Positions 13,663-27,358 of a stretch of DNA of 33,325 bases are shown in pieces (within the stretch, counting starts at the first letter, position 1; every line of letters begins with the position of its first letter). The stretch spans positions 1 through 33,325 of the forward strand of contig QXHL01000030.1 of NCBI GenBank assembly GCA_003584005.1. Reading direction: 5' to 3'. This DNA is from Alicyclobacillaceae bacterium I2511 (lineage in GTDB: Bacteria; Bacillota; Bacilli; Alicyclobacillales; Alicyclobacillaceae). The notes under the pieces are model-generated. The model made no database searches. It was not told where the DNA came from and worked only from the letters and a program-made list of their open reading frames with translations. Position numbers and translations under genes: made by a program.

Positions 13663-14286
13663 ATGAAACTTATCTTAGAAAGCCCCAATGTAAATGCCTA
13701 TTTGGAAAATACGGAGGTCATTAATTTTCATGATCCTGTCGTTGCACAAAAAATCTCGGAAATTCAAGCAACCACCTCTACTGTTGAAACACAGGCCGCC
13801 CTAGCGTTTGACTTTGTACGTGACCAGGTGCGTCATTCCTTCGATGTAGATGCACTAAAGGTTACCGTGGCAGCCCCAGAGGTATTGACTGAAGGTGTGG
13901 GAATTTGCTTTGCCAAGGCACACTTGCTGGCGGCTTTATTCCGCGGTCTTGGAATTCCCACAGGGTTTTGTTATCAACGAGTGATGCGCAAGGGCACGCC
14001 AGAATCCGGCTTTGCCCTGCACGGACTCAACGCTGCCTATTTCCCACAGGTGGGCTGGGTTCGGTTGGATCCGCGAGGAGATAGGGCGGGGGTTCATTCC
14101 GAGTTCAATTTGCATGTGGAGCACTTAGCCTACACTCTAAACCTGGACGCTGGTGAGGTGGATTATCCCTTTGTGTATACCCGCCCACTCTCGTCGGTCC
14201 TACGCTCCATGTGGGAGTCTACAGACTGTCATGAACTGTTCTACCTTAGACCCCCACAACTAGAAGTTGAAGAAATGCTGGCTTAA
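13663..14286 (+). CDS. Transglutaminase-like cysteine protease-fold protein
   Basis: The 207-residue soluble protein contains the transglutaminase-like core. Cys82 lies in LTEGVGICFAKAHLLAALFR, His120 in FALHGLNAAYF, and Asp136 in WVRLDPRG, giving the complete Cys-His-Asp triad in the usual order. There is no signal peptide, so it probably acts in the cytoplasm as a protease or amidase. Its substrate is not evident. The start follows AAGGAGTG. It is 23 bases upstream of the OsmC gene, so co-transcription is very likely. Confidence 0.88.
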   Translation: MKLILESPNVNAYLENTEVINFHDPVVAQKISEIQATTSTVETQAALAFDFVRDQVRHSFDVDALKVTVAAPEVLTEGVGICFAKAHLLAALFRGLGIPTGFCYQRVMRKGTPESGFALHGLNAAYFPQVGWVRLDPRGDRAGVHSEFNLHVEHLAYTLNLDAGEVDYPFVYTRPLSSVLRSMWESTDCHELFYLRPPQLEVEEMLA

Positions 14287-16475: not shown

Positions 16476-18749
16476 TCAGCTCAATGTTTTTCCATGAGTC
16501 GTTTCAGCCCTTTGTGTGCTCAAGTAAATTTTGTGTGCAATACTGACTTTTTTTATAAAATCCCATGCAATGACAACTCCACCGGCGCCAAACGCAATAT
16601 CCCCTGGCATACGCAGCCACTGCCACAGCAAAGTTGTATTATAAAATTGTAGGCTGCGCGCATAGACGTAGCTGTGCGTATAAACCGCCAGCAGTTGTGC
16701 AAAACCGATGGGAAAGAAGTTGAGTACACACCAGAGAATCATCCCAATGTTGAATAACCAAAATGAAACCACTGCAGGTTTATCCGACCACCTAGAATCG
16801 TCTCCGACAATGTACCGTAGAGCAAAATAGGCCAAGCCGATGCCCAACATTCCAAAAGCACCAAACATGGAGGTGTGGGCGTGTCCCAAAGTTAAAAATG
16901 TACCATGTTCATAGTAATTGATTAACGGAGCGTTAATCATTCCGCCAAACACACCAGCGCCAAAAAAGTTCCAGACTCCAGAACCAACAAGATAGGTAAA
17001 AGCCGATTTTTGAACGAAATGTGGACTATCTTTCATATGTCGGTGGTTCTCCACAGCTTCCACAATCATTAACAACAATGGCATCACTTCAATAAACGAG
17101 AACATGCTGCCCAACCCCAGCCAAATCCATGGTTCCCCCACCCAGTACATGTGATGGCCGGTTCCGACAATTCCACCGAGAAATACTAAAATCATCTCAA
17201 ACCAGGTGACTCGTTCTGCGGTTCGACGTGAAACAAATCCTAATTCAACCAGTAAGTACGAGGTGGCCACAATCGCAAAGAACTCGAATGTTCCTTCCAC
17301 CCACAGATGAACCACCCACCAGCGCCAAAAGTCTGTGAGGGTAAAGGAATTCATAATCCATGTAACTGGGAACATTCCAAACACGTACATAAAAGCAATC
17401 GACATTCCAGAGTACAAGAATAGGTGTTCTAGTGTCCCAAATCCTTTTTTTCCTCTCAACACAGGCCACATCGCGCGTGCAAGAATATAAACCCACAACC
17501 ACAATCCTGCGAATAAGGCCAATTGGTCAAACCGCCCCAATTGCAAATACGATAACCCCTGGTTGCCAAACCAAAACCAACTGTTTCCCGGCAACCAGCC
17601 TTTAATTCCTGCGTAAAGACCAAACAGTGTGGAGAGACCCACCACCCATAAAGCAACAAACAAAATGTCGACCAATAAACCTTGGTGCTTTGGTTCCTTG
17701 CCACTGATGAGGGGTGCGAGGAACAGACCAGCCCCAATCCAGGCCACGGCAATCCAGAAGATTGCTAGTTGAATATGGACAGCTTTCAAAGCATTAAACG
17801 GTAACACTGTAAGCATATTAATGCCAAAAAAGGTGCTGCGTTCGGAGTAGTAATGGGCCAAACCCATCCCAGCGCCAATCTGGATTAGAAACAAAATTGC
17901 TACACTGACAAAATACTTCCCCGTTTTACGCTGGCTTAAAGTAATTGCGGGGAATCCTTTAATAACCGCCTCCTCTTTTTCGCCCTCCATCTTTGGAGAA
18001 GTAATATGTGCAAAGTACAAGTAAATTGTCACACCAATCGCTGCCAGTAAAAGTCCAATGGATGCCCAACTCCAAATAAATGTAGCCCCCGTTGGCTGAT
18101 TTCCCACTAACGGATCATAGGGCCAATCATTCGTATAGGAATAGTCTAATCCCGGACGGTGTGCCACCGCAGTCCAACCGGTATAAACCAAAAAGTCTCC
18201 CACGTTTTGTGCCGATTGAGGATTCAAAGCTGCCGCGCCCGCATACCCCGCCTGCTGGTTAGTATGTAACACACTGTAAGCAAGCTGATGGCTGACTTGA
18301 TTAATGGCCGTTGCTTCGGTTTGTGAAACAATGAGATTTTTGCCTTGAAACACTGGATTTTGTAGCTCATGATTTGTTACGGCTCGAATATCGTACTGTT
18401 GTCCACCGCTAAGTGCGTTATAGGATTTCCCATACTTAATTTGAGCATAGGCATTATCCATATTTAAGGCAATTTGATGAAGACTTAATGCCGTCCAATC
18501 TTCCTCAAAATATGCGCCATTTCCATACACACTCCCATAATCCATCAAATCAGCTTCTTGAAAACCTGCTTTACCACCAATAATCTGGTTCTGGGTCATG
18601 ACCACCAATCCATTAGACGTCTGGATCTGGTTGGGAATAGGTGGTGCGCCCTGGTACGTTTTCACAGTCCCCCAAATAAATATCGTGGCACATGCCAGCA
18701 ATACAATCACAAAAACACGTTTTAATACACGCGTAACCGGATCGTTCAT
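16476..18749 (-). CDS. norZ: Quinol-dependent nitric oxide reductase (qNor)
   Basis: This 757-residue integral membrane enzyme reduces NO to N2O with electrons from quinol. The N-terminal about 230 residues form the qNor-specific extension: one helix plus an external domain containing the NorC-like part. A heme-copper-oxidase-like core of about 12 helices follows. Core features are visible in HLWVEGTFEFFAIVATSYLL, GIVGTGHHMYWVGEPW, and HGTFLTLGHAHTSMFGAFGM, which carry the histidines for the hemes and non-heme iron plus the conserved glutamates. No separate cytochrome c subunit gene is adjacent. It is third in a probable unit with two ABC genes, 58 bases after the permease. Confidence 0.95.
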   Translation of the reverse strand: MNDPVTRVLKRVFVIVLLACATIFIWGTVKTYQGAPPIPNQIQTSNGLVVMTQNQIIGGKAGFQEADLMDYGSVYGNGAYFEEDWTALSLHQIALNMDNAYAQIKYGKSYNALSGGQQYDIRAVTNHELQNPVFQGKNLIVSQTEATAINQVSHQLAYSVLHTNQQAGYAGAAALNPQSAQNVGDFLVYTGWTAVAHRPGLDYSYTNDWPYDPLVGNQPTGATFIWSWASIGLLLAAIGVTIYLYFAHITSPKMEGEKEEAVIKGFPAITLSQRKTGKYFVSVAILFLIQIGAGMGLAHYYSERSTFFGINMLTVLPFNALKAVHIQLAIFWIAVAWIGAGLFLAPLISGKEPKHQGLLVDILFVALWVVGLSTLFGLYAGIKGWLPGNSWFWFGNQGLSYLQLGRFDQLALFAGLWLWVYILARAMWPVLRGKKGFGTLEHLFLYSGMSIAFMYVFGMFPVTWIMNSFTLTDFWRWWVVHLWVEGTFEFFAIVATSYLLVELGFVSRRTAERVTWFEMILVFLGGIVGTGHHMYWVGEPWIWLGLGSMFSFIEVMPLLLMIVEAVENHRHMKDSPHFVQKSAFTYLVGSGVWNFFGAGVFGGMINAPLINYYEHGTFLTLGHAHTSMFGAFGMLGIGLAYFALRYIVGDDSRWSDKPAVVSFWLFNIGMILWCVLNFFPIGFAQLLAVYTHSYVYARSLQFYNTTLLWQWLRMPGDIAFGAGGVVIAWDFIKKVSIAHKIYLSTQRAETTHGKTLS

Positions 18750-18807
18750 TTCTTTCTCTCGCCTCCGTCGAATTGTCCGGACTTATTGAGCAAAGCACCT
18801 GTTTCCC

Positions 18808-19551
18808 TTAGCTAGCAGGGCGTTTGATAAACCACGTAGCTAAAAGCCAGAGTCCTCCAGCATATAAGATCAATCCTATGGCGACAACGCCACCTTGCAA
18901 CGTTCCTAAACTTGAAAACCCAGGTAACAGATGTAATGCATATGTGGAAGGGAGAATCCACAAAAGCATATTTGCCAGTTTACCTCCAATTGGAACCATC
19001 CCGCCAAACAGAATTCCCATCATGACAATATTTCCAATTAAACCCGCTAGCCCTTCGTCAGGTGCCAAGAGGCCAACAAGAATACCTATACTTCCAAGCG
19101 CAACACCTTCCAGTAGAAATACAGGAATATCCGCTAAAGTCCACGCCAGATACACATGGTCTAGGTACTGGCCTTCCAGCCCAATCAGCAAAATTCCCGG
19201 CCATGCAAATAGGCTGTAAACCATGGTCATGGATAAAACCAATATCGACATTGAAATAGGTAACACACGGTAATGATCTAGCGCCTTGGAGGCTTTTAAT
19301 GCAGCAAGTTGTTGTGATAGCATGACAACACCTGCGATAGACTCGGATAAAACCATAGCCCCTAAAATAACTTGATAGCGTGCGGACAGCAACATCGCAG
19401 GCGCAATCAAATGTAGCAAAAGCACAATACCGGCTGGCATTACAGCACTCACAATGACATAGGGACGCCAACTCTGTCGAAGTCGAGCAAACTGCATTTT
19501 GATGAGAACCTCAGTCATTTTAGGACCTGTAGCTGAGAGCAACGCTTCCAT
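18808..19551 (-). CDS. ABC-2 type transporter permease
   Basis: The 247-residue protein has six hydrophobic segments and an N-terminal cytoplasmic part, the layout of small ABC-2 permeases. Its ATG overlaps the ATPase stop codon (TGATG), and GGGGGG at 19564-19559 is seven bases upstream, so it is the partner of that ATPase. The DEGLAGLIGNIVMMGILFGG segment resembles the conserved ABC-2 loop and helix. Substrate is unknown. The position immediately before qNor suggests a role in NO stress or in maturing the reductase; both are inferences. Confidence 0.85.
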   Translation of the reverse strand: MEALLSATGPKMTEVLIKMQFARLRQSWRPYVIVSAVMPAGIVLLLHLIAPAMLLSARYQVILGAMVLSESIAGVVMLSQQLAALKASKALDHYRVLPISMSILVLSMTMVYSLFAWPGILLIGLEGQYLDHVYLAWTLADIPVFLLEGVALGSIGILVGLLAPDEGLAGLIGNIVMMGILFGGMVPIGGKLANMLLWILPSTYALHLLPGFSSLGTLQGGVVAIGLILYAGGLWLLATWFIKRPAS

Positions 19552-20513
19552 CAATTTGCCCCCCGTTGAAGATCTGGTGTGTGAAGTTGATCCCGAATCC
19601 GCAAATACATTTCTTCCAAGCTGGGTTCTGAAACTTGGATACTCTCAATTTCTTCAGCAAGCCCGCCCCTTAATATTGTCGTCAATCGTTGCACGGCTTC
19701 AGACTGTGCCACGTGCAACGTCAACACAGCACCGTCCACTTCTGGGCGTTCCCCCACTACACCTGCCACCTTTGCCACCCATTCTTGGACGTGTGCCTTC
19801 ACAGATAAGACAATCGTCGTAAACCTCCCCACCTCATCCCGGATGGTTTGTGGGGAGCCACTCCGAACCACTTGGCCCTCTGCCAAAATGACGACATAAT
19901 CCAACACAGTTTCTGCTTCTAACACATTGTGTGAGACGAGCAATACCAGCCGATTTTCTGAACGGAGATTACCAATTCGTTCCCAGACCTGTTTTCGCAT
20001 CAATGGATCGAGCTCATTGGTTGGCTCATCCAAAGCCACCACAGGCGTAGGAGCAACCAACACGCTCGCGACACTCACTAATCGGCTTTCTCCCCCAGAA
20101 AGTTGGCTAACCAGGCGGCTCCGCATCGACGATAAATCAAAATCCCGTAATAATTCTTCTGTTCTTTCCCTTGCAACTTCAGGCTGCACACCGCGTAACA
20201 ATGCGCTATAGCGAATCGCCTCCTCCACTTTCAGATCACTTAAAGCCAGTGGATGTTGTGGAAGATAAGTAATCATCTCCTGTACCCAACGTTGCCCTGG
20301 ATGGATGACGCGATCCGACAAACGAATGTCTCCAGCAGTAGGCTTTAAAAGCCCCACCAACATTCTCAGCAAGGTGGTCTTGCCAGCTCCGTTTGGCCCC
20401 AAAATGCCTACAATCTGGCCAGCGGGAAAAGATAAAGTAATGCCCCGATTCGCCCACTGCCCGGTTCGGTATTGTTTTGAAACCTGATTAAAAGTGAGAA
20501 AGGATTGTTCCAA
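19551..20513 (-). CDS. ABC transporter ATP-binding protein
   Basis: The 320-residue protein has all ABC ATPase motifs: Walker A GPNGAGKTT (Lys45), Q-loop, signature LSGGE (138-142), Walker B VVALDEPT (Asp162, Glu163) and H-loop SHN (His194). A C-terminal domain of about 100 residues follows, as in ABC-2 exporters of the CcmA type. Start TTG 20513 is preferred to ATG 20528 because GGGAGG (20526-20521) lies seven bases before TTG and overlaps the ATG itself. It is the first gene of the unit with the permease and qNor, downstream of an Fnr-type box. Confidence 0.92.
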   Translation of the reverse strand: MEQSFLTFNQVSKQYRTGQWANRGITLSFPAGQIVGILGPNGAGKTTLLRMLVGLLKPTAGDIRLSDRVIHPGQRWVQEMITYLPQHPLALSDLKVEEAIRYSALLRGVQPEVARERTEELLRDFDLSSMRSRLVSQLSGGESRLVSVASVLVAPTPVVALDEPTNELDPLMRKQVWERIGNLRSENRLVLLVSHNVLEAETVLDYVVILAEGQVVRSGSPQTIRDEVGRFTTIVLSVKAHVQEWVAKVAGVVGERPEVDGAVLTLHVAQSEAVQRLTTILRGGLAEEIESIQVSEPSLEEMYLRIRDQLHTPDLQRGAN

Positions 20514-20632
20514 TTTTCCGCCTCCCATCCTCTTGTATCGTTACAAACCCACAACGTTCATTCACCTCTGCACCTCCCTTGTAGTCCGGATTTCTACTAC
20601 CTCTAGAGACTAATGCATGCAGACTATAAAAT

Positions 20633-20648
20633 TGTGATGAAAGTCACA
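20633..20648 (-). promoter_or_regulatory. Fnr/Crp-type binding site before the ABC-qNor unit
   Basis: TGTGA-CTTTCA-TCACA on the minus strand is a perfect match to the TGTGA-N6-TCACA consensus of Bacillus Fnr and the wider Crp/Fnr family. It is 120 bases upstream of the ATPase start. The expected -10 for a site centred at -41.5 would fall at 20612-20607 (TAGTCT), which is poor. A better -10, TATAGT at 20628-20623, would put the site between the -35 and -10, a repressing position. The mode of action is therefore open. Confidence 0.7.
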
Positions 20649-20757: not shown

Positions 20758-21240
20758 TTACGCCTCGGAAGCTGGTTTCTCAGATCGTTTGCGTTCATAC
20801 TCTTTCTGATTCTCGGTCTGGGGAATTGCGCGGTCTGGGTGTAAACGTTCATACTCCAGTTCGTTATGATATAACCAGTGCATATCCAAGTAAAAGTCAT
20901 CCCGATTATAACTTGCGAGTTCAAATTTGTCTGACATCAGGATGGCTTCCGTTGGGCAAACCTCCGTACATAGATTGCAAAGAATACAAATATCATAATT
21001 AATATCATAGGTTTCTATTCTTAATTTTCTTTTTTCATCACGACTCCCCGATAAGGAAATACAGTCTGTCGGACAAATTCGGGCACATTGGTTGCATACG
21101 GTACACAACTCTGGAATAAACCGATGCACACCTCGAAACCGTTCCGGATAACTAATTTCTTGTTCCGGGTACATCAGCGTGACTTTCTTTTTTGGTAACT
21201 GGCGGATGGTTACAGCCATCCCTTTTAACAATCCAAACAT
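20758..21240 (-). CDS. NuoI-like ferredoxin with two [4Fe-4S] motifs
   Basis: The 160-residue protein carries two complete CxxCxxCxxxCP motifs, CTVCNQCARICP and CILCNLCTEVCP, separated by about 30 residues. The preceding YPERFRGVHRF matches the 'RFRG' signature of NuoI, the 8-Fe subunit of complex I. No other complex I gene is adjacent, so it may be a stand-alone electron carrier or a remnant of a dispersed complex. ATG 21240 follows GGGGGTG. It lies 54 bases after the FixX-like gene on the same strand. Confidence 0.87.
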   Translation of the reverse strand: MFGLLKGMAVTIRQLPKKKVTLMYPEQEISYPERFRGVHRFIPELCTVCNQCARICPTDCISLSGSRDEKRKLRIETYDINYDICILCNLCTEVCPTEAILMSDKFELASYNRDDFYLDMHWLYHNELEYERLHPDRAIPQTENQKEYERKRSEKPASEA

Positions 21241-21294
21241 CAGCTCACCCCCTATACACTTTTTACTTCAGCACTCTTATAGGCTATAGAATGA

Positions 21295-21579
21295 TTAACC
21301 TAACTTATAGGAAATCCCATATCCACCGGTGGGGTATTCCCATTCGATATTATAATAGGGACAAGCTAAACGACAGGTTCCACACTCCACACAGTTTTCA
21401 TAAGCCACAGAAGTCATTTTTAAATCTTCGTGCCACAGATAAACATCTGATGGACAGAAGTAATTACAATTTTTTAATTCGCAATGATCACACACCACCT
21501 GATCCGTTATTCTAAGGTGAGGTAACTCTGCCGCCTTGTAGCGAATTGTGTACAGTCGTTCTTCAATACTTGCATTCAT
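21295..21579 (-). CDS. fixX: FixX-like ferredoxin
   Basis: The 94-residue protein matches FixX-type ferredoxins: CDHCELKNCNYFCPSDVY, then CVECGTCRLACPYYNIEW and a C-terminal GGYGISYKLG. FixX proteins partner the electron-transfer flavoprotein:quinone oxidoreductase FixC. The partner genes fixA, fixB and fixC are not in the window. A GGGAGGTT ribosome site precedes the start at slightly long spacing. It forms a pair with the NuoI-like gene. Confidence 0.87.
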   Translation of the reverse strand: MNASIEERLYTIRYKAAELPHLRITDQVVCDHCELKNCNYFCPSDVYLWHEDLKMTSVAYENCVECGTCRLACPYYNIEWEYPTGGYGISYKLG

Positions 21580-22202: not shown

Positions 22203-22511
22203 TTAAGAAATGCCCCGCGCTTGATATCGAACGACAAGATCCTCATGAAAATAGCCTTGTTCCGAAGGCTGTGGTTTCCTAACTTTCATAACCATTTCTG
22301 CATTCTTCCACACTTCGGCTGCAGTAGATACAAGCTGCGCTTTTGCCGCTAAATACTCTTCATCTGCAAACCCCCGTCCAAGCCCTGCTCCTGACTCCAT
22401 TACGAGTGTGTGCCCCACTTTTACAAGTGCCTCCACCCCAGCAGGTGATACTGGAACACGGACCTCGTTGTTCATTACTTCTTTTGGGATCCCAATTTTC
22501 ATAATTTTCAT
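22203..22511 (-). pseudogene. ald: Truncated alanine dehydrogenase (N-terminal fragment)
   Basis: The 102-residue reading frame reproduces the N-terminus of alanine dehydrogenase: MKIGIPKEVMNNEVRVPVSP, then GHTLVMESGAGLGRGFADEEY and VMKVRKPQPSEQGYF. After HEDLV the family sequence stops and an unrelated tail leads to TAA. The intact enzyme has about 370 residues with a NAD-binding domain, which is missing here; the next gene is a ferredoxin. The GGAGGG site is intact, so a short protein could still be made, but it cannot be a working dehydrogenase. This is probably a deletion remnant. Confidence 0.85.
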
Positions 22512-22922: not shown

Positions 22923-23606
22923 TTACCTGTTTTTAAAATCCACAGTCACTGAAAACTCACCTATTTTCTCTATTTGTATCTGGATTTTATCACCGGCTGT
23001 AATGAGTCCCGCTCCCTCCGGAGTTCCAGTTGTTAGAATGTCTCCTGGATTAGGGTCATCGCACTCGAGACCACCTCAAGAAAACGATAGCAGTCATAAA
23101 CCATATTACTGGTATTAGATGATTTGCTAATTATTACATTCGTCCAGAGTCGAATTTGAACATCGTTCGGATTGCCAAACTCGTCGGACGTCACAATCCA
23201 GGGACCAATGGGTGTGAATGTATCAAAGGATTTTCGATAGGATCGCTCTTCTTTCCCTTGCACGGTGATGTCCATCAATGCCAGGTATCCAAATATATAT
23301 TGAGAGGCCTCGGATGCTGGTACATTTTTTGCGGTTTTACCCACGACATAGGCTAACTCTGCTTCGTGATGGATGGGGCGATTCTGAAATGGAAGCCGCA
23401 CCATTTCGTTTGGTCCAATAATCGAAGAAGGGGCTTTAAGAAAAAAAAACAATTCTTCCACTGTCGAGTCTATTCTCATTTCCTGTTGATGCAGCTTGTA
23501 GTTTTCTGCCGCAGCCACGATTTTACTTAGTTGTAAAACTGGGAGTCTCTGCCGCCTGTTGGACAACATCCCCCAACCGGTTATTCTGAAAGATTGCCAC
23601 TTTCAT
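22923..23606 (-). pseudogene. Fumarylacetoacetate hydrolase-family gene with two frameshifts
   Basis: Three reading frames join to one FAH-family protein. The start MKVAIFQNNRLGDVV (23606) is in one frame. The body (KIVAAAENYKLHQQEM, FFFLKAPSSIIGP, HHEAELAYVVGKTAKNVPAS) is in a second frame. The end (NPGDILTTGTPEGAGLITAG) returns to the first frame and ends with TAA at 22925. One shift lies near 23550 and the second near 23050, where ATGACCCTAATCCAGGA appears to lack one A. The shifts compensate. Related enzymes hydrolyse or isomerise aromatic ring-cleavage products. Either the gene is inactive or the sequence holds two errors. Confidence 0.8.
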
Positions 23607-24209: not shown

Positions 24210-24722
24210 TTACTCGAACGGATGATCTTCTTCTTCAGTTGTGTCTTTAAGATTAGATTTTGTAAGAGCAAACAATGCCTCCTCTTCTGTTTGAGAGTGC
24301 AGTCGATTCAACTGTAATAAAGTGATGAATCGGTCCAGCAACGTTTCTTGCCAGCGTCGTTCATTCATAAGCCCCTCAATTTCGTCGATAAGTTCCCCCA
24401 TTAATTGGTGGTCTCTTTTCAGTTCAACGAGTTGGCTCGCCAACCCCGGGTCTTTCTCCTGCAACTCCAAATACCATCCTTGTTCCTCCGCCGTTGCATG
24501 TGCAAGTACCCGCGACTTCCAATGTTCCAAAAGAACTTCCGCCACCGCCACAGCTCTTAACTCGTTTTCCTGACGATCCATTTGACGAAGCAAAAAAGTA
24601 ATGCTCTCCGCCTCACGTAGTGACGCTTCATGAATGTCGTGATGAGAATTGCGTTGTTTTAGAGCGGGTCCTGCTTTGTAAAACGTATTTTCCTGATTAT
24701 CATCGCCATTTTTCCTCATCAT
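24210..24722 (-). CDS. Hemerythrin-like (HHE) iron-binding protein
   Basis: The 170-residue all-helical protein carries histidine/glutamate motifs of the HHE family: LLEHWKSRVLAHATAEEQ (His67, His75, Glu79/80), KRDHQLMGELIDEIEGLM (His105) and LHSQTEEEALF (His142, Glu146/147). These could hold a di-iron site that binds O2 or NO. ATG 24722 or the adjacent ATG 24719 follows GAGAGGTG; a longer frame to 24806 would overlap the nirK end and has no such site. It starts 37 bases after nirK, so a role in NO or nitrite stress is a fair inference. Confidence 0.7.
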   Translation of the reverse strand: MMRKNGDDNQENTFYKAGPALKQRNSHHDIHEASLREAESITFLLRQMDRQENELRAVAVAEVLLEHWKSRVLAHATAEEQGWYLELQEKDPGLASQLVELKRDHQLMGELIDEIEGLMNERRWQETLLDRFITLLQLNRLHSQTEEEALFALTKSNLKDTTEEEDHPFE

Positions 24723-24759
24723 GGACACCTCTCTCTCAAAATAAAAGTTCTCTTTGTCA

Positions 24760-25797
24760 TTAATTAGTGACATCAAATTTGCCAACAGCACCCTTGCCAT
24801 AGGCATTCATGGCGTGCGACAAAAATGGGTAAAGGCCCGGTTGCGGAAACTGCAGGTGCACGAGCATTCCGTCCCCAGGTGCCACGGTATAGGTTTGCAC
24901 GTCATACAGGTTGTTTTGCGGATTGCCTGAGGCGTTCACATCACGCAAAATGGTACCCACCACGTGGAAAGCGGAAAACTCATCCGGTCCAGCATTGACA
25001 AAAGCCACGGTGACGGGTTCATTCACTTTGACTGGCAGCGGGTGGTCCACATAACGATTGGCAAATCCATTGAAGGCCACGTAGTTGGGTTGATCACTTA
25101 AAACCGCCTGCAAATCATCGGGAGGATAGAATTCACTCTGAACGAGGGTATAAGTCGGGGGGGCCTGATTAGGCGGCGTCACCACCACTGCTCCGTACAT
25201 TCCTTGAGCGATGTGCAAGTCCATTGGCGGAGTAGCGCAGTGATACATGAATACACCAGGCAAACTGGCGACAAACGTGAGGGTTTTTGATTTTCCTGGC
25301 CAAACGTCCGAAAAGGCAAGATTTGGCGCAACTTGGGCCGCATGCAGGTCAATAGAGTGAGGCATATTGGGATCAAGGTTATGCAGGGTTATGGTAACAT
25401 GATCTCCCTGACGCAAATAAAGAACGGGTCCGGGCACAGTCCCGTCAAAAGTCCAGGCGGGAAAGTTGACCCCCGGCGCGATTTGCACGACCGTTTCTTC
25501 TGTGTACAGGTCCATCGACACATACTGTCCGTGGCGAATAAATTTCATGGGGTACGGTAACTGGTTCAATGGATTCATTGAGGCGGACGACGGCTGGCTT
25601 TCAGACGATCCAAAGGAATTTTGGCTCGTAGCAGCGTTGCCGGAATGCGTCGCAGATGGGGTGTCTGTGTGAATTGGAGTGCTTGGCAAACTCTGCTTTG
25701 TGTTGGGGGCGCACGCTGTCAAACTGGCGATACCTAGGACAACTGTCAGGGCAGCAAATGCACGAGACCCTTGTTTGAGATGGACTTTTGGGGGCAT
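24760..25797 (-). CDS. nirK: Copper-containing nitrite reductase, lipoprotein type
   Basis: The 345-residue protein has a lipoprotein signal peptide (ASLTAC, lipid cysteine at 29), a Ser/Thr-rich spacer to about residue 75, and two cupredoxin domains. All NirK ligands are visible: type 1 copper His147, Cys187, His195 and Met200 (FMYHCATPPMDLHIAQGMYG), type 2 copper His152, His186 and His328 (PFLSHAMNAYG), and the catalytic pair Asp150 and His278. It reduces nitrite to NO on the outer face of the membrane. The gene lies between a 12-helix membrane protein and a hemerythrin-like protein. The upstream AAGTAGGCG site is only moderate. Confidence 0.93.
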   Translation of the reverse strand: MPPKVHLKQGSRAFAALTVVLGIASLTACAPNTKQSLPSTPIHTDTPSATHSGNAATSQNSFGSSESQPSSASMNPLNQLPYPMKFIRHGQYVSMDLYTEETVVQIAPGVNFPAWTFDGTVPGPVLYLRQGDHVTITLHNLDPNMPHSIDLHAAQVAPNLAFSDVWPGKSKTLTFVASLPGVFMYHCATPPMDLHIAQGMYGAVVVTPPNQAPPTYTLVQSEFYPPDDLQAVLSDQPNYVAFNGFANRYVDHPLPVKVNEPVTVAFVNAGPDEFSAFHVVGTILRDVNASGNPQNNLYDVQTYTVAPGDGMLVHLQFPQPGLYPFLSHAMNAYGKGAVGKFDVTN

Positions 25798-26029: not shown

Positions 26030-27319
26030 CTATGAGTAGTTCGTGTTGCAATCCACAGGTCTCGTTCCCCCAATTGTCAGCACAAAGCGCAGCGCTACAA
26101 ATAACAGCATGCTGCCCAAAGTCATGCAAACGGCACTGACCCAGGACAACCACAAAAGCAACGGATGAATCCTGAGGTCTAGCAACCCCACGACACCAGC
26201 TATGACCCCCATGAAATAAAGGACCATCCCCCATTGAGCGATCCGCTTTGGCACCATGTCGTCTATGAGGGGGGCTGTTTTACGTTCTGGCCGTTTGCTG
26301 AAGCGATACTCGAACCAGAGAAACGGGACCATCTTTTGCATATAGGAATACATCAAAGCAATCAATCCGCCGAATGCAAATAGATAGGCCGAAGGATACA
26401 CCCAGAAAGTTGTGTGAAAAGCCGTCGCAATCACGATTCCGGCTTGGCCAAGGACAAGAAAAACCATGGCTAAACTTGCATCCCACATGGGTAAAACGAT
26501 GGTACGTTTTTTGTGCGCTCGGCCAATTGCAATCATATCGCGCACGTATAGCACCAAGCTGGTCAGGAGCAACACGCAGCTGACGCCTTGGACGACGCGC
26601 GAAAGCAGTTCGTCCGGCAACCAGTTTGACACAATCCACAGGGCCACTGCGACAAAATAAAGACTGCCACTGCGAATCAGAGATGTCTTGTAACCGTGAC
26701 TAATGATAAACATGGGGACCAATTTATAAGAAAATACAAGGACTAGTCCCCCCCAGAATGCAAATCCCCCCAGCAATACGTGCGTCAGTAAGAGGGGGAG
26801 ACTTATCTGTGATGGGAAAAATGCTTGAAATAATCCCACGAGAATGACCAACCCCATGGCAGACAGTGGGATGGATAGGGATTTGTGAACAGCTGTTTTG
26901 TTGCGTGCGTAAAAATAGCTGCGACCCAACAGCAGAAAGTACGCTACAGTATTGCAAAAAAGCAGTATACCGCCACTGCCGACGACAAAGAATTGCAGGC
27001 GCAAAAAACCAATAACCATGAGAATGATCGACAAAATGTGGATTGGAAGGTGCCAATACAGGACATGTCGTGGAATTGGCTGAGCCTGAAAAGCAATCGG
27101 CACAATTTGATAAAGCACGCCGAAAGCGATGGTCCACATAGAACCAAGCACAAGCAAATGAACTGTTGCAAGGGACAGTGCTAAAGAAATCGCTCCCTGT
27201 TGCCACGCTGGAAGTAAATCACCTGTCGCCAACAGGCCTGGCCATCCCAAGGCCAGGCCTGCGAGCAGATAATAGACAGTTGCGGATAATCGCTTTTTCG
27301 GAGAATTTATGAATTTCAT
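26030..27319 (-). CDS. Polytopic membrane protein, NnrS- or heme-copper-like
   Basis: The 429-residue protein has about 12 hydrophobic helices with spaced histidines: ATVHLLVLGSMWTIAFGVLY, YWHLPIHILSIILM, LLLTHVLLGGFAFWGG and ATAFHTTFWVYPSAY. This pattern is like NnrS and heme-copper oxidase-like proteins seen with denitrification genes, which bind heme and relieve NO stress in some bacteria. The exact family is not certain. ATG 27319 follows GGAGGGG; a GTG 13 codons upstream gives a longer frame with no site. It lies 39 bases after the split-barrel gene, and nirK follows. Confidence 0.6.
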   Translation of the reverse strand: MKFINSPKKRLSATVYYLLAGLALGWPGLLATGDLLPAWQQGAISLALSLATVHLLVLGSMWTIAFGVLYQIVPIAFQAQPIPRHVLYWHLPIHILSIILMVIGFLRLQFFVVGSGGILLFCNTVAYFLLLGRSYFYARNKTAVHKSLSIPLSAMGLVILVGLFQAFFPSQISLPLLLTHVLLGGFAFWGGLVLVFSYKLVPMFIISHGYKTSLIRSGSLYFVAVALWIVSNWLPDELLSRVVQGVSCVLLLTSLVLYVRDMIAIGRAHKKRTIVLPMWDASLAMVFLVLGQAGIVIATAFHTTFWVYPSAYLFAFGGLIALMYSYMQKMVPFLWFEYRFSKRPERKTAPLIDDMVPKRIAQWGMVLYFMGVIAGVVGLLDLRIHPLLLWLSWVSAVCMTLGSMLLFVALRFVLTIGGTRPVDCNTNYS

Positions 27320-27358
27320 CCCCCCATCCCCTCCACACTTAACGCAATATCCAACCAC

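Follow-up and report, generated by a model that had tools for sequence, protein, structure and literature searches.

The stretch of DNA analysed here (the window) is 33,325 nucleotides of contig QXHL01000030.1 from Alicyclobacillaceae bacterium I2511. The feature under study, at 16476-20648, comprises a gene for the nitric oxide (NO) reductase qNor, the genes for the ATPase and permease of an ATP-binding cassette (ABC) transporter upstream of it, and a CRP/FNR-type palindrome in front of these, with all of the genes on the minus strand (Table 1). A preliminary description of this DNA had read the ABC genes as an exporter pair co-transcribed with qNor under a perfect Fnr box, which might help to mature the reductase or export an NO-derived product. 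The overlap of the ATPase and permease genes and the 58-base gap to qNor were borne out by the open reading frame (ORF) coordinates. The overlap is 4 bases with a TTG start for the permease, or 1 base with the ATG at 19551, and the true ATPase start is perhaps a TTG at 20513, behind the sequence GGGAGG. This spacing suggests that the ATPase, permease and qNor genes are co-transcribed, apparently as one operon. A weak terminator-like hairpin lies inside the 3' end of the permease gene (18861-18846); overall, terminator-like matches (6 vs 5.7 ± 2.3) and promoter-like ones (10 vs 8.7 ± 3.1) are no more frequent than in shuffled sequence.

Table 1. Features of the ABC pair and qNor region, in positions of the window.
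Feature	Position	Strand	Description
qNor, NorZ type	16476-18749	minus	757 aa; PF22085 and PF00115; best solved match 3ayf
Permease-qNor gap	18750-18807	minus	58 bp; likely qNor ribosome-binding site GGAGGCGAG, read by eye
ABC-2 type permease	18808-19554	minus	248 aa; homologues match PF01061; model mean pLDDT 91.9
DrrA-like ABC ATPase	19551-20528	minus	325 aa; motifs GPNGAGKTT, LSGGE and DEPTNELDP read in the sequence
CRP/FNR-type palindrome TGTGATGAAAGTCACA	20633-20648		104 bp before the ATPase ATG; exact TGTGA-N6-TCACA match

The qNor protein is a single chain in which a cytochrome-c-like N-terminal domain (PF22085, 140.9 bits at residues 39-211) is fused to a NorB/COX1 core (PF00115, 186.2 bits at residues 277-718), and it aligns with the solved qNor 3ayf over residues 8-712 (E 3.4e-151). 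The ATPase has the Walker A, signature and Walker B motifs expected in an ABC-2 (type V) exporter, matches PF00005 with 104 bits and reaches PF13732 exactly at the cut-off (27.4 bits). Its best NCBIfam model is TIGR01188 (DrrA), at 179.6 bits against a cut-off of 312.45, which places it outside the DrrA subfamily proper; among solved structures it matches ABCA-family chains best (E 1e-62), at the level of a broad superfamily. The permease itself has no Pfam or NCBIfam match, and homologues at three other loci (L054, L055 and L049) match PF01061. A structure model of the permease, built on a 43-row alignment, has the ABC-2 permease fold. Among the matches listed in a structural search with this model (the best 50), four NosY chains rank highest (Z 18.0-19.1), the best of them aligning 227 residues at 3.9 Å with 12% identity. 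Other NosY chains scored Z 17.1 and 15.8, ABCA, ABCG and ABCH chains scored Z 15.5-17.7, and all of the listed matches lie at 9-15% identity. The model thus displays a fold shared by ABC-2 permeases, and is by itself no proof of NosY function.

The pair and qNor are mostly found apart in relatives. The seven closest qNors (68-71% identical), from relatives in the same family or order, do not have this pair in the 15-17 kb examined, and among 50 loci with a qNor ORF the pair is present at one, the window, itself counted (52 stretches were surveyed, and L041 and L242, which gave no qNor ORF in the ORF calling used, were dropped). The highest ATPase identity near any other qNor of this set is 34% (L239). 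A further 19 qNor loci from the class of genome G420, two of them on very short contigs, gave no match of the ABC-pair family; three of them have other ABC ATPases, of 26-33%. A single-sequence permease search of 101 genomes, the genome itself and its kin, gave two matches, the permease itself and one of 23% in a genome with no qNor match, and neither a single-protein permease scan of genome contigs nor a tblastn search of plasmids gave any match. The ABC family was reached by ATPase alignment, which gave 385 relatives, of which the best 80 were kept. In the class of G420 (154 genomes), 21 genomes carry a close pair (best E below 1e-70) and 21 have a qNor match at E 1e-20. Genome G885, where qNor (64%) lies ∼81 kb from the ABC pair, is the sole overlap, and the other 20 close-pair genomes, some only 76-91% complete, have no qNor match at that threshold. 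Across 398 genomes of the phylum, a permease-profile match below 1e-25 was found in 12 besides that of the window, none of them among the 31 with a qNor match; G209 holds both a permease (4e-23) and qNor, on different contigs. The expectation of a conserved qNor-ABC neighbourhood was therefore contradicted, since the pair stands without a qNor match in 20 of 21 close-pair genomes and the closest seven qNors stand without the pair. As the two mostly occur apart, a role dedicated to qNor is not supported.

Several other ABC genes near qNor were not counted as members of this family. In a family relative (G021, locus L033) a nos cluster lies directly upstream of a 70% identical qNor, and encodes NosZ (797.8 bits), an ABC ATPase, a PF12679 permease and a YtkA-like protein; the ATPase, 1.45 kb upstream of qNor, was set aside as part of that cluster. 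A qNOR adjacent to a Nos cluster is also described for a Brevibacillaceae genome (PMC11388526). The ABC set of L217, 1.6 kb from qNor, lies behind a gene on the opposite strand. The ABC genes near qNor at L227 and L239 are on the opposite strand, the sets downstream of qNor at L356 and L358 are importer-type by eye, and L362 has two ABC ATPases of 26-28%.

A tree of 91 ATPase rows places the window sequence with nine rows of the f115 family type (support 100/93), and outside this group come G885 and then L061. Row L343 is the Sulfobacillus harzensis sequence (L057), so the f115-type group was taken as a Sulfobacillus group. The permease is 55-57% identical to those of four f115-type relatives and 36% to that of a fifth row, and 60% identical to that of G885 by tblastn. 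Given the absence of the pair from kin and its position in the tree, it was probably acquired horizontally; an old gene lost by the kin is possible. More distant relatives are widespread, for example in Paenibacillus and Tumebacillus. In Sulfobacillus harzensis (L057, 5256-7657) the permease match is in two parts ∼1.6 kb apart, as if by insertion.

Within the window, TGTGA-N6-TCACA is matched exactly nowhere but at the palindrome TGTGATGAAAGTCACA. Allowing up to two mismatches yields 13 matches where 17.3 are expected, and as these loose matches fall below expectation only the exact match, in promoter position, is meaningful. Genome-wide there are 9 exact sites against 4 for a reversed-pattern control, which makes the pattern alone weak evidence. 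One exact site of the same genome (L267, 3578-3593) precedes a NarK-type gene by ∼225 bp (TIGR00886, 238.6 bits against a cut-off of 311.7), and another precedes by ∼22 bp a gene with weak similarity to the CuNIR-like gene of the window (32%, E 2e-6); no recognised denitrification gene was found beside the remaining exact sites. The pattern TTGAT-N4-ATCAA occurs at 3 places in this genome against 11 for its control.

The position of the box was compared with that in relatives. Directly before qNor in the window the best site has 4 mismatches to the CRP/FNR consensus; the exact box stands before the ATPase, with the ABC pair intervening between it and qNor. At 22 of 45 other qNor loci (L051, L237, L244 and L246, with qNor ORFs of 600 aa or less, being left out) a box with at most one mismatch lies in the ∼350 bp upstream of qNor, and at these 22 loci equal matches arose in 0-5 of 100 shuffles. 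These include five of the seven closest qNors, which carry such a box directly upstream; a sixth has one with 2 mismatches. Of the 17 testable loci among the 19 further qNor loci (two, with no upstream sequence, were left out), 11 have a box with at most one mismatch. The same type of box precedes the ABC pair itself. After merging of loci with identical ATPase starts, as was also done for the neighbour counts, GTGA-N6-[TG]CAC was found within 200 bp upstream of the pair at 14 of 22 close loci and 2 of 67 distant ones (p 4e-9, kinship ignored), and the strict form GTGA-N6-TCAC at 6/22 and 0/67, respectively (p 1e-4, likewise). All ten loci of family f163 have the relaxed box, nine with at most one mismatch to the full consensus and one with 3; outside f163 it occurs at 4 of 12 loci, each time with 2 mismatches.

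As for the 'perfect Fnr box', the palindrome is indeed exact, and Fnr is one possible regulator of it among several, since the box suits other CRP/FNR regulators too. The HcpR consensus given in one study, wTGTGAnnnnnnTCACAw, equals the box found here (PMC1274295). A search of the genome with PF13545 found 10 matches; two of them, L255 and L256, read as CRP/FNR-family proteins. L256 has one cysteine and L255 has four, scattered, and neither shows the spacing of the cysteines that ligate the iron-sulphur cluster of Fnr, though an Fnr may have been missed. Against solved structures L256 matches the CRP/FNR family (best E 6.5e-19), including the NO sensor DNR (3dkw, E 1.5e-15). It is clustered with a gene similar to FeS_assembly_P in G885, and with genes for DUF2249, multi-transmembrane (multi-TM) and radical SAM (TIGR04053) proteins, and its homologues (24-42%) occur in 19 of 51 other qNor stretches, as 21 ORFs, some of which may be other CRP/FNR members. 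The candidate regulator of the box is this CRP/FNR protein, encoded at about G000:C153:21136-21807, and not a classical Fnr. A cluster of the same genome at L266 5821-9898 comprises an FeS_assembly_P-like gene, a CRP/FNR regulator, DUF2249, a multi-TM protein and a TIGR04053 radical SAM gene.

A minority of the close relatives have DUF2249 and COX1-like neighbours. At L338 of G885 a GTGA-N6-TCAC site comes after a CRP/FNR-type gene. Then follow, in tight order and with frames partly assigned by eye, DUF2249, FeS_assembly_P, DUF2249, a further stretch like DUF2249, a multi-TM protein, the ATPase (its start overlapping the end of the gene before it) and the permease. Genus g307 of family f163 has the order permease, multi-TM protein, DUF2249, all on one strand, in three of its four genomes (G462, G841 and G843); in the fourth, G842, the pair has no neighbour of this kind. 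A one-mismatch box lies 69-70 bp before the ATPase in G462 and G843, and the G841 contig ends there. The opposite gene orders in G885 and g307 suggest two separate associations, the window with qNor being a third. Within ∼5 kb, DUF2249/COX1-like neighbours were found at 4 of 24 close loci, in two lineages, and at none of 65 distant ones (p 0.004), 'COX1-like' being a label that itself denotes a weak match. NnrS was dropped as a name for the multi-TM proteins, as Pfam does not support it even at E 5. DUF2249 we take to be COG4309. The regulon study reports that nnrS belongs to the core of NO regulons and that in some proteobacteria COG4309 often shares a transcript with norB, which may make it relevant to NO reductase (PMC1274295). 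At L055 a radical SAM gene and a hemerythrin-domain gene lie 3-5 kb from the permease. The region near that pair (L055, 11869-14592) holds, besides these two, a transglutaminase-like gene 62% identical to one in the window at 13663-14286.

On balance we lean towards the pair being an exporter that belongs to an NO/anoxia regulon under CRP/FNR control and is expressed alongside qNor without being dedicated to it. One ATPase and one half-size permease would form the exporter, presumably as a two-plus-two complex. Because the pair sits between the CRP/FNR-type promoter box and qNor, exporter and reductase are probably both made under anoxia or nitric oxide. The reductase would remove NO by reducing it to N2O with quinol, and the exporter, as a separate arm of the same response, would use ATP to expel some amphipathic compound from the cytoplasm or the inner leaflet. 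Its family may be part of an NO/anoxia regulon in several Bacillota lineages, and no qNor assembly factor. The direction of export, and any link of the substrate to NO, are inferences. Export of an NO-related product, the second of the two roles first proposed, gains indirectly, because boxes of this type recur before relatives of the pair and because, in two other lineages, such relatives stand beside DUF2249/COX1-like genes.

A number of observations weigh against this reading. The window is the sole qNor locus found with the pair, and distant ABC-2 relatives abound: at E 0.001 a permease profile of two rows matched in 183 of the 398 phylum genomes. The box is missing at 8 of 22 close loci, one of them G885, where the site stands at the head of the entire operon. 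That site differs from the full consensus by 2 mismatches, and scanning L338 with one mismatch allowed gave no box. Some 10-14% of shuffles equal the four f115-type sites, which also have 2 mismatches. The box p-values take no account of kinship, the relaxed pattern was defined after the sites had been seen, and 10 of the 14 box-positive loci belong to the one family f163, so that these counts are not independent. The neighbour counts are likewise not independent, three of the four cases being one genus; 20 of the 24 close loci have no DUF2249/COX1-like neighbour, and the multi-TM neighbours have no Pfam family above the cut-off, their best match being to COX1, at E 5e-4 (L073).

Some of these points would equally suit a general drug or lipid exporter with no link to NO, which was transferred horizontally and landed by chance between the qNor box and qNor. 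Such hitchhiking, which we consider rather unlikely, would explain why the pair is at only one of the qNor loci examined, why box and neighbours are missing from the loci just counted and why the ATPase is DrrA-like; it would leave unexplained the same box type in front of the pair in other lineages, and the joining of the pair to DUF2249/COX1-like genes in two lineages in different orders. DrrAB-type exporters (TIGR01188, PF13732, PF01061) have in common with the pair a DrrA-like C-terminal ATPase domain, a separate half-size permease and overlapping genes, but the ATPase here falls far under the DrrA cut-off, and the CRP/FNR box and the qNor neighbour set the window apart.

We regard it as decidedly unlikely that the exporter handles haem or another cofactor, moving haem for membrane proteins of the haem-copper type that are produced under anoxia (qNor here, COX1-like in relatives). 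The partners of the pair are indeed qNor or multi-TM proteins with the weak, below cut-off COX1 match, the radical SAM and hemerythrin-domain genes of L055 lie close to its permease, and CydDC and CcmB are reported as haem transporters. However, no such partner lies within ∼5 kb at 20 of the 24 close loci, and no such pair was found at the other qNor loci examined. As an ABC exporter whose loss is reported to give NO sensitivity, CydDC of E. coli resembles the pair (PMC4785604). In CydD and CydC, each a half transporter, the membrane part and the ATPase are fused, whereas the system in the window is a split ABC-2 pair.

That the pair is a NosFY-like maturation factor dedicated to qNor, as its place beside qNor and the NosY chains heading the structural alignments (best Z 19.1) might suggest, is very improbable, given the ABC-2 fold shared with ABCA, ABCG and ABCH chains, the absence of the pair from the seven closest qNors and of a qNor match from nearly all close-pair genomes, the lack of any NosZ above the cut-off in the genome and of any further gene in the unit. 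The likeness to NosDFY, which matures nitrous oxide reductase, lies in an ABC ATPase and ABC-2 permease beside a denitrification enzyme and in the similar permease fold. No NosD-type partner was found in the unit, which consists of ATPase, permease and qNor only (NosD elsewhere in the genome was not searched), and in the genome, 98.36% complete, no NosZ match exceeds the TIGR04246 cut-off, the sole match, of 25.6 bits, being the CuNIR-like gene. The nos-cluster permease of L033 matches PF12679 best, whereas homologues of the window permease match PF01061; the window permease matches neither, though NosY chains head its structural list.

The reading of the pair as a regulon exporter not dedicated to qNor can be extended, tentatively. 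NO defence is mainly described as NO-removing enzymes and damage-repair proteins. The family may be a new component of that defence, ABC-2 exporters induced by NO or anoxia through CRP/FNR-type boxes in a number of Bacillota lineages, which export a compound derived from NO or damaged by it (for instance nitrosylated haem, a nitrosyl-iron-thiol or a damaged lipid) alongside qNor or DUF2249/COX1-like proteins. We consider this extension unlikely, but if true a recurrent box-controlled exporter beside NO genes would add an efflux arm to NO defence. The described regulons of HcpR, DNR, NnrR and NsrR include nnrS, COG4309 and the nor and nir genes, which are governed by sites of CRP/FNR type or by NsrR sites, but the word ABC is absent from the main text of that study (PMC1274295). 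In the literature searched, as titles and starts of abstracts and with subscription papers mostly outside the search, no description of such an ABC pair with qNor was found.

Other genes of the window lie upstream of the pair. Genes for NuoI-like and FixX-like ferredoxins (20758-21579) are on the same strand, directly upstream of the box and the ATPase, and read-through from them into the ABC pair is possible. At L033 a FixX-like gene (55%) likewise lies ∼5 kb from qNor. Short ORFs at 22203-22511 and 23033-23569, by eye fragments of alanine dehydrogenase and fumarylacetoacetase type, are possibly decayed genes. A hemerythrin-domain gene overlaps the CuNIR-like gene (24210-25797), which matches TIGR02376 with 177 bits, under the cut-off of 296. 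Finally, a hydrophobic protein of 442 aa (26030-27358), which matches nothing in NCBIfam and nothing in Pfam under E 0.03, is distantly like (25%) the COX1-like protein that adjoins the ABC pair in G885.

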